A DNA stretch of 62,688 bases, from assembly GCA_027483445.1 (NCBI GenBank), contig JAIXUS010000063.1, forward strand, positions 1 to 62,688, given 5' to 3'. Source of the DNA: Bacteroidota bacterium (GTDB taxonomy: Bacteria; Bacteroidota; Bacteroidia; M30B66). The translations under genes were made by a program, and so were the position numbers. The number at the start of each line of letters is the position of its first letter. Positions within the stretch are counted from its first letter, which is position 1. Positions 23,095 to 23,346 of this stretch are shown piece by piece. The notes beneath the pieces were generated by a model that was given only the letters and a program-made list of their open reading frames with translations, did no database searches and had not been told where the DNA came from.

Positions 23095-23128
23095 AATCCC
23101 CGCTGAACCATCACAAACAGCGGGGATT
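23095..23128. terminator. Bidirectional terminator between the M28 peptidase and the tRNA-like gene
   Basis: A perfect 11-bp stem (AATCCCCGCTG / CAGCGGGGATT) with a 12-nt loop is flanked by T-rich sequence when read on the minus strand. It closes both the peptidase (plus) and the tRNA-like RNA (minus). Confidence 0.8.
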
Positions 23129-23147: not shown

Positions 23148-23301
23148 TGGCTGTAGAGGAAGGATTCGAACCTTCACGAGGAGGTTAGCCAGTGTTCAAA
23201 CCTCATTGCTGAGGGGAGTGGTCAACCCTTTAAACACCGTTTATCCCTGGATCCTCACCCCCGAGACAAGAGGGATTGTCTGCCAGTTTCAACACCCTAC
23301 A
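23148..23301 (-). ncRNA. tRNA-like RNA (class II, Leu-type) with an 82-nt structured insertion, 154 nt
   Basis: On the minus strand the 5' arm (23301-23295) TGTAGGG pairs with CTCTACA (23158-23152), followed by G and an encoded CCA (to 23148). Next come TG, then a Leu-type D-arm TTG-AAACTGGCAGA-CAA (23292-23276), then an anticodon arm CCCTC-TTGTCTC-GGGGG (23274-23258). The T-arm is GAAGG-TTCGAAT-CCTTC (23175-23159). Between the anticodon arm and T-arm, where a class II variable arm of about 15 nt belongs, lie 82 nt (23257-23176). These fold into GAGGA/TCCTC, an 11-bp stem CGGTGTTTAAA/TTTGAACACTG, and a CCTCA-GCAA-TGAGG hairpin. The formal anticodon would be GUC with an unusual U at position 37. 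It has its own -33/-7 promoter and terminator. It could be an aberrant tRNA, a tRNA with an intron, or a tRNA-derived regulatory RNA. Confidence 0.75.
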
Positions 23302-23313
23302 ATTCAACTGCGA

Positions 23314-23346
23314 CAAATGTAGGAAAATCGATAATTATGATGCAAA
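23314..23346 (-). promoter_or_regulatory. -33/-7 promoter of the tRNA-like gene
   Basis: On the minus strand TTTG (23346-23343), 21 nt and TACATTTG (23321-23314) match the Bacteroidota consensus. The predicted start is about 23310, roughly 9 nt before the acceptor stem. Confidence 0.65.

Follow-up and report, generated by a model that had tools for sequence, protein, structure and literature searches.

A Conserved tRNA-like RNA of Bacteroidota with a Giant Variable Arm, a Candidate Carrier for Making Asparagine from Aspartate

Introduction

The tRNA-dependent synthesis of asparagine with GatCAB is known from Deinococcus, Thermus, and Bdellovibrio and is found where a genome encodes AsnRS and GlnRS but no asparagine synthetase (PMC4206432). 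The carrier in this pathway is the decoding tRNA-Asn, an RNA with U1-A72 that is charged by AspRS and amidated by GatCAB, and a non-discriminating AspRS is needed. In 2014, GatCAB was noted to persist in Bacteroidota that have GlnRS as well as AsnRS and are without classical asparagine synthetases, which was ascribed only to a possible non-discriminating AspRS (PMC4206432). The identity determinants of aspartate are G73, G34, U35, C36, and C38 (PMC9976931). U1-A72 permits amidation by GatCAB, whereas G1-C72 and U20a block the amidation of tRNA-Asp (PMC9976931), and U1-A72 is the pair recognised by bacterial GatCAB (PMC4206432). In bacterial tRNA-Asp, G1-C72 is strictly conserved and helps to position the acceptor end in AspRS (PMC9976931).

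Here, a family of tRNA-like RNAs from Bacteroidota is described that likewise bears U1-A72 and would likewise be charged by AspRS and amidated by GatCAB. In contrast to the pathway above, the carrier would be a separate, non-decoding RNA with an aspartate anticodon, so that a discriminating AspRS would suffice. Neither Rfam 15 nor the literature searched, which comprised open-licence papers, yielded an earlier description of the family, and it is apparently undescribed. The type of pathway is known; the new part would be its dedicated carrier, giant-armed and non-decoding, for which no earlier example was found.

Other unusual RNAs offer partial parallels. In staphylococci, a non-decoding tRNA-Gly serves cell wall synthesis, namely the wall bridges. 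The RNA described here is similarly proposed to come from a tRNA gene specialised for non-ribosomal use, but the staphylococcal tRNA-Gly has no giant arm, involves no amidation, and carries another amino acid. Allo-tRNAs and selC-type tRNAs are also naturally odd and have a long variable arm. However, their acceptor is lengthened (8/4, 9/3, or 13 bp), whereas the present family combines a 7-bp acceptor with a 5-bp T-stem and has a far larger arm. Class II tRNAs (Leu/Ser/Tyr) have a variable arm of about 10–25 nt, and this class is excluded by an arm of 41–148 nt (median 73 nt), by the GUC anticodon, and by G73. The family resembles tmRNA in having tRNA-like ends on a longer RNA; this assignment was rejected, as no tag frame was recognised, the anticodon arm is complete, and neither Rfam nor ARAGORN gave a tmRNA match. 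Nor is the family an ordinary tRNA; it has a pyrimidine at position 37, a giant arm, and the composite identity described below.

The RNA of the Window and Its Flanking Signals

The window, i.e., the whole stretch of DNA that was analysed, comprises 62,688 nucleotides from a Bacteroidota bacterium. An earlier note, made from these letters alone, had placed a tRNA frame on the minus strand, and its coordinates and sequence were confirmed exactly. The RNA occupies positions 23148–23301 (154 nt) from U1 (23301) to the encoded CCA (23150–23148) and scores 156.9 bits with the covariance model (R1). All of the features that follow lie on the minus strand. The acceptor stem of 7 bp is formed by UGUAGGG (23295–23301), in which U1, G2, and U3 are near-invariant across the family, and CUCUACA (23152–23158), with A72 at 23152; the invariant discriminator G73 stands at 23151. 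The D-arm UUG-AAACUGGCAGA-CAA (23276–23292) has a 3-bp stem, resembles that of tRNA-Gln, and is without U20a. The anticodon arm CCCUC-UUGUCUC-GGGGG (23258–23274), with a 5-bp stem, is matched best by tRNA-Asp, and its anticodon G34 U35 C36 (23265–23267) is followed by U37 and C38. Covariation supports the T-arm GAAGG-UUCGAAU-CCUUC (23159–23175).

An insert between the anticodon arm and the T-arm is present as the earlier note had it, although its length is 81 nt (23177–23257) and not 82. Covariation and comparison identify it as an enlarged variable arm. Its stem 1 (5 bp) pairs UGAGG (23253–23257) with 23177–23181, and an internal loop follows in which the motif GGGAUAAA (23240–23247) faces GCUAAC (23184–23189), both conserved in the alignment of homologs. 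The covarying stem 2, or helix 5, pairs 23233–23239 with 23190–23196 (7 bp). Farther in lie the motif GGGUUGACCAC of long-arm forms (23218–23228), which is carried by about half of the members (62/121), and the hairpin CCUCA-GCAA-UGAGG (23201–23214), in which other pairs substitute in the relatives L003–L006. The GCAA-capped hairpin was thus predicted correctly, but conservation describes the 11-bp helix proposed with it better as the 5-bp stem, the GGGAUAAA/GCUAAC loop, and the 7-bp stem with the hairpin.

A promoter and a terminator of the RNA's own, both claimed before, were seen by inspection. The promoter TTTG-N21-TACATTTG (23314–23346) is of the Bacteroidota type and is a consensus match only, and the terminator (23095–23128) consists of the hairpin AATCCCCGCTG...CAGCGGGGATT and a T-rich run. 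Terminators also stand 3' of homologs. In family f1, the terminator loop GUUUGUGAUGGUUC is kept (in the window and downstream of L003–L006) despite differing flanks. In Cyclobacteriaceae-type loci (L063, L073, L081, L083, L088, L114, and L131), the 3' trailer AGGTTATTTTGGGTTTATTGTTAATTGACTAAAGC is kept near-perfectly, more so than parts of the RNA, and L067 and L093 have related trailers. Upstream of many members, AYAY is conserved immediately 5' of U1. Between the -7 box and the RNA, many members (e.g., L073, L081, L130, and L132) have inverted repeats that possibly form a leader hairpin or a regulator site.

Recognition by Standard Tools

Checks with ARAGORN and Rfam, which had been suggested earlier, were run, and neither recognised the window copy. 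ARAGORN reported nothing within the window, and there was no Rfam match within it at gathering scores. At E-value thresholds, the window RNA gave only a trivial, T-arm-like match of 17 nt on the opposite strand. In RF00005 (tRNA, threshold of 29 bits), the short-arm member L014 reaches 40.3 bits, and the window copy falls below. ARAGORN overlooked the RNA at 28/28 loci tested; given these misses, the annotations of many genomes are probably without it. The folding energy of the window RNA is like that of shuffled sequence (z = -0.23). With both programs silent and an ordinary folding energy, the single sequence provides weak evidence, and it is homology and covariation, not folding energy, that raise the RNA above chance.

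A Widespread and Structurally Conserved Family

The RNA of the window is a real member of a conserved, widespread RNA family of Bacteroidota. A DNA search of 60 relatives returned homologs from the window's family as well as from several others in the class. A covariance model, built from an alignment of thirteen homologs, was run on 395 genomes of the class, where members score at least 79 bits and ordinary tRNAs about 50–68 bits. Genomes with a strong match (E of 1e-18 or better), 67 of the 395, are referred to as RNA-positive. A pattern scan of named genomes yielded at least 119 stretches, nearly all from Bacteroidota, with Chitinophaga, Cyclobacterium, Flammeovirga, Lunatimonas, Saprospiraceae, and Cryomorpha among the groups represented. 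As the pattern contained GTC and GGCAG, conservation at these sites was re-measured on an unbiased set of 89 distinct members, for which the covariance score was the sole criterion. One locus labelled Thermoanaerobaculia (L084) has two copies and is probably a Bacteroidota contaminant.

Many genomes hold a single copy, and in some, from several lineages, tandem arrays of 2–4 copies are found. Several arrays have one terminator, placed after the last copy, which implies that the copies are processed from a shared precursor. A locus of the window's genus (L007/L247, G001:C84:5356-5502) is without most of the anticodon loop (CCCTCTCGGGGG) and is probably a broken copy or an assembly error. In L013:1405-1537, there is an insertion in the D-loop (CGGTCTGAATGACCA).

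Structure is conserved throughout the family. When 121 distinct members were parsed through anchors in the sequence and not by pairing, the stems of the acceptor, D-arm, anticodon arm, variable arm, and T-arm proved to be paired in 88–100% of cases, with compensatory types. In the alignment made with the model (107 distinct sequences), which leans toward structure, 95.9% of the pair cells are paired (85.5% after shuffling) and 397 cells show double changes (118 after shuffling). The same alignment shows changes on both sides at all 7 of the 7 pairs of helix 5, inside the arm, and acceptor pairs 4–7 covary freely. Absence of homologs or decay in relatives, which had been named as signs of a pseudogene, is not the pattern seen: there is a family with compensatory changes and one decayed copy, L007/L247. 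The idea of a new tRNA-derived RNA or expanded-arm tRNA fits what was found, i.e., a conserved family with compensatory changes inside the arm itself. That of an intron-bearing tRNA finds no support: the insert occupies the variable region, its structure is kept by every member, and no intact member of the core family is without it. No intronless core member was seen; there is one 77-nt short-arm relative, in G065 (L289).

The end of the acceptor deserves two further remarks. Position -1 is C or T in 108/121 members, so that a further pair with G73 could form in most of them and an 8-bp acceptor is possible. The encoded C74 was considered as a special trait and rejected, because normal tRNAs of the same genome mostly encode C74.

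Composite Identity

The anticodon arm is nearest to the tRNA-Asp of the same genome in 120/121 members, and nucleotides 1–26 are nearest to its tRNA-Gln in 115/121. A mismatch between the GUC anticodon and the body had been pointed out before, and it was the key clue to a composite identity: the body resembles tRNA-Gln more than the tRNA-Leu first named, and the anticodon arm is of the tRNA-Asp type. The RNA is like tRNA-Asp (GUC) in its anticodon arm, C38, G73, and G2-C71 and unlike it in having U1-A72 instead of G1-C72, no U20a, a pyrimidine at 37, a different D-arm, and a variable arm of 41–148 nt. With the tRNA-Gln (UUG) of the same genome, it shares the first three acceptor pairs UGU/ACA and the D-arm ACUGGCA, whereas the anticodon, the discriminator (A73 in tRNA-Gln), and the variable arm differ.

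In the unbiased set, U1-A72, G2-C71, and G73 are each present in 89/89 members, U35 and C36 in 88/88, G34 in 83/88, and C38 in 87/89; U1-A72 is also found in 120/121 of the anchor-parsed members. U20a is absent in 121/121, with C-A-G after G18 G19, although this set was selected partly on GGCAG; the unbiased set has C-A after G18 G19 in 83/89 members and C-U in one. The RNA thus bears the aspartate determinants and, with U1-A72 and without U20a, the amidation signals at once.

Other traits argue against decoding. The odd pyrimidine at position 37, noticed in the loop TTGTCTC of the window copy, turned out to be a family trait (118/121), while the inspected tRNAs of the same genome have a purine. 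U33 is replaced in 18/121 members (G33 in 17). The pyrimidine at 37 and the loss of U33 suggest that the RNA is non-decoding, and the genome also has a normal tRNA-Asp.

Family f49 departs from this picture. Its loci L259 and L263 (G191 and G369) have CUC for GUC, and the 77-nt L289 (G065) has AUC and a short variable region. AsnA is found in G191, whose RNA is without G34, and in G065, which has the short degenerate relative only. It is as if the charging signals decay in this family where an asparagine synthetase is present.

Genomic Neighbourhood and Co-Occurrence

A divergent gene for a regulator of the Lrp/AsnC type adjoins the RNA in 25/60 assessable named loci, from many genera, and in many other genomes. 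Within NCBIfam, AsnC matches it best but does not reach the curated cut-off, and the protein is thus only AsnC-like. The window's own family has the regulator at another place, not adjacent to the RNA. The asnA of E. coli is divergent from the gene of its activator AsnC (PMC8707732), so the RNA beside the AsnC-type gene takes the place held there by asnA. Among 14 loci fetched from Bacteroidota, AsnC was never seen beside AsnA or AsnB.

The presence of GatCAB was judged from GatB alone. GatB occurs in 67/67 RNA-positive genomes and, over the cut-off, in 293/395 of the class overall (hypergeometric p 2e-10). A panel of 80 genomes, 40 RNA-positive and 40 RNA-negative, was compared further. AsnRS is present in 80/80 and GlnRS in 43. 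In the genomes with GlnRS, all of which have AsnRS, GatB is found in 26/26 RNA-positive but in 1/17 RNA-negative genomes (Fisher p 6e-11); the p values for co-occurrence ignore shared ancestry. GatCAB is dispensable for Gln-tRNA where GlnRS is present, and 23 of the 24 RNA-negative genomes of the panel with GatB are without GlnRS. The sole panel genome with GatB and GlnRS and without the RNA is G019, where a divergent GatB lies within an open frame of 1120 aa and is perhaps a fusion; G019 and other f11 genomes have a divergent GatB of about 360 bits. Families f35 and f40 hold both RNA states, and both follow the GatB rule.

The E. coli-type AsnB (NF006949) is found in 0/40 RNA-positive and 8/40 RNA-negative genomes, and AsnA in 2/40 and 4/40, respectively. 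NF006949 was used as the stricter model, since TIGR01536 is uninformative owing to many paralogs. AsnB-like proteins that match TIGR01536 occur in most RNA-positive genomes, and asparagine could consequently come by another route.

A Proposed Carrier for Making Asparagine and Its Alternatives

On balance, the RNA is probably a tRNA-like carrier that does not decode and that serves to make asparagine from aspartate. From the family, its structure, the determinants, co-occurrence, and synteny, we infer the following course. The RNA would be transcribed, in some species as a tandem precursor, and processed like a tRNA, as the arrays suggest. AspRS would charge it with aspartate by way of G34, U35, C36, C38, and G73, and GatCAB would amidate the bound aspartate, given U1-A72 and the lack of U20a that set the RNA apart from tRNA-Asp. 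The resulting Asn-RNA may then yield asparagine, most simply by deacylation, perhaps under AsnC-type control in many species. The pyrimidine at 37 and the large arm might bar entry into the ribosome, bind AspRS or GatCAB, or both.

There are three main doubts about the carrier model. The AsnB-like proteins are one. U1-A72 is another, as its departure from the bacterial G1-C72 may weaken charging by AspRS. The third is steric: so long a variable arm could be hard for a class II synthetase such as AspRS to accommodate. Moreover, neither a deacylase nor any other user of Asn-RNA came to light, which counts against the model.

An RNA charged by AspRS, and perhaps amidated, could instead be a sensor or regulator that reports the supply of aspartate and asparagine to AspRS, GatCAB, or an AsnC-type regulator, or that titrates AspRS, without being a bulk source of asparagine. 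The adjacent regulator, the single copy in many genomes, and arm motifs that could bind a protein would suit such a role. Nevertheless, it is unlikely, since a pure sensor or titrator of AspRS has no need of an invariant U1-A72, the retention of GatB would not hinge on the RNA, and tandem arrays of 2–4 copies in several lineages suggest a bulk need. Somewhat less plausible still is a role as donor outside the ribosome, in which aspartyl- or asparaginyl-RNA would pass its amino acid to a peptide, a lipid, or the cell envelope, as with the staphylococcal tRNA-Gly. Here, a transferase gene would be looked for nearby, and it is never a recurrent neighbour; the recurrent families, not all of which were identified, include the AsnC-type regulator and none recognised as an amino acid transferase. 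The combination of non-decoding traits (pyrimidine 37, G33 in 17/121, and the giant arm) with an intact charging set speaks for this role.

It is very improbable that the RNA decodes GAC/GAU as a tRNA-Asp isoacceptor whose variable arm has expanded, even though GUC, C38, and G73 are present. It has neither G1-C72 nor a short variable loop, a normal tRNA-Asp already exists in the same genome, and U1-A72 would expose it to amidation, with Asp misread as Asn. The pyrimidine at 37, against a purine in the inspected tRNAs of the genome, and the replaced U33 also tell against decoding. Hardly any weight is left for a pseudogene or a tRNA broken by a random insertion or an intron. Although L007/L247 is without its anticodon loop and ARAGORN reports no tRNA, this reading is refuted by covariation, seen as compensatory changes in the helices of the acceptor, the variable arm, and the T-arm; members are spread over many families, the RNA has its own promoter and terminator, and the core family is without an uninterrupted version.

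Significance

The carrier model can be put in a stronger form, to which we would give about an even chance. Dedicated non-decoding tRNAs of Bacteroidota would serve solely to carry aspartate to GatCAB. The RNA would replace asparagine synthetase and would be the cause of keeping GatCAB despite GlnRS and AsnRS, AsnC-type regulators would control it divergently, and the arm would keep it out of translation. The carrier hypothesis is directly testable. If it is true, it would explain why GatCAB is kept in Bacteroidota that have GlnRS and AsnRS and are without classical asparagine synthetases, and it would provide an example of a tRNA with a metabolic job and a conserved architecture of its own.
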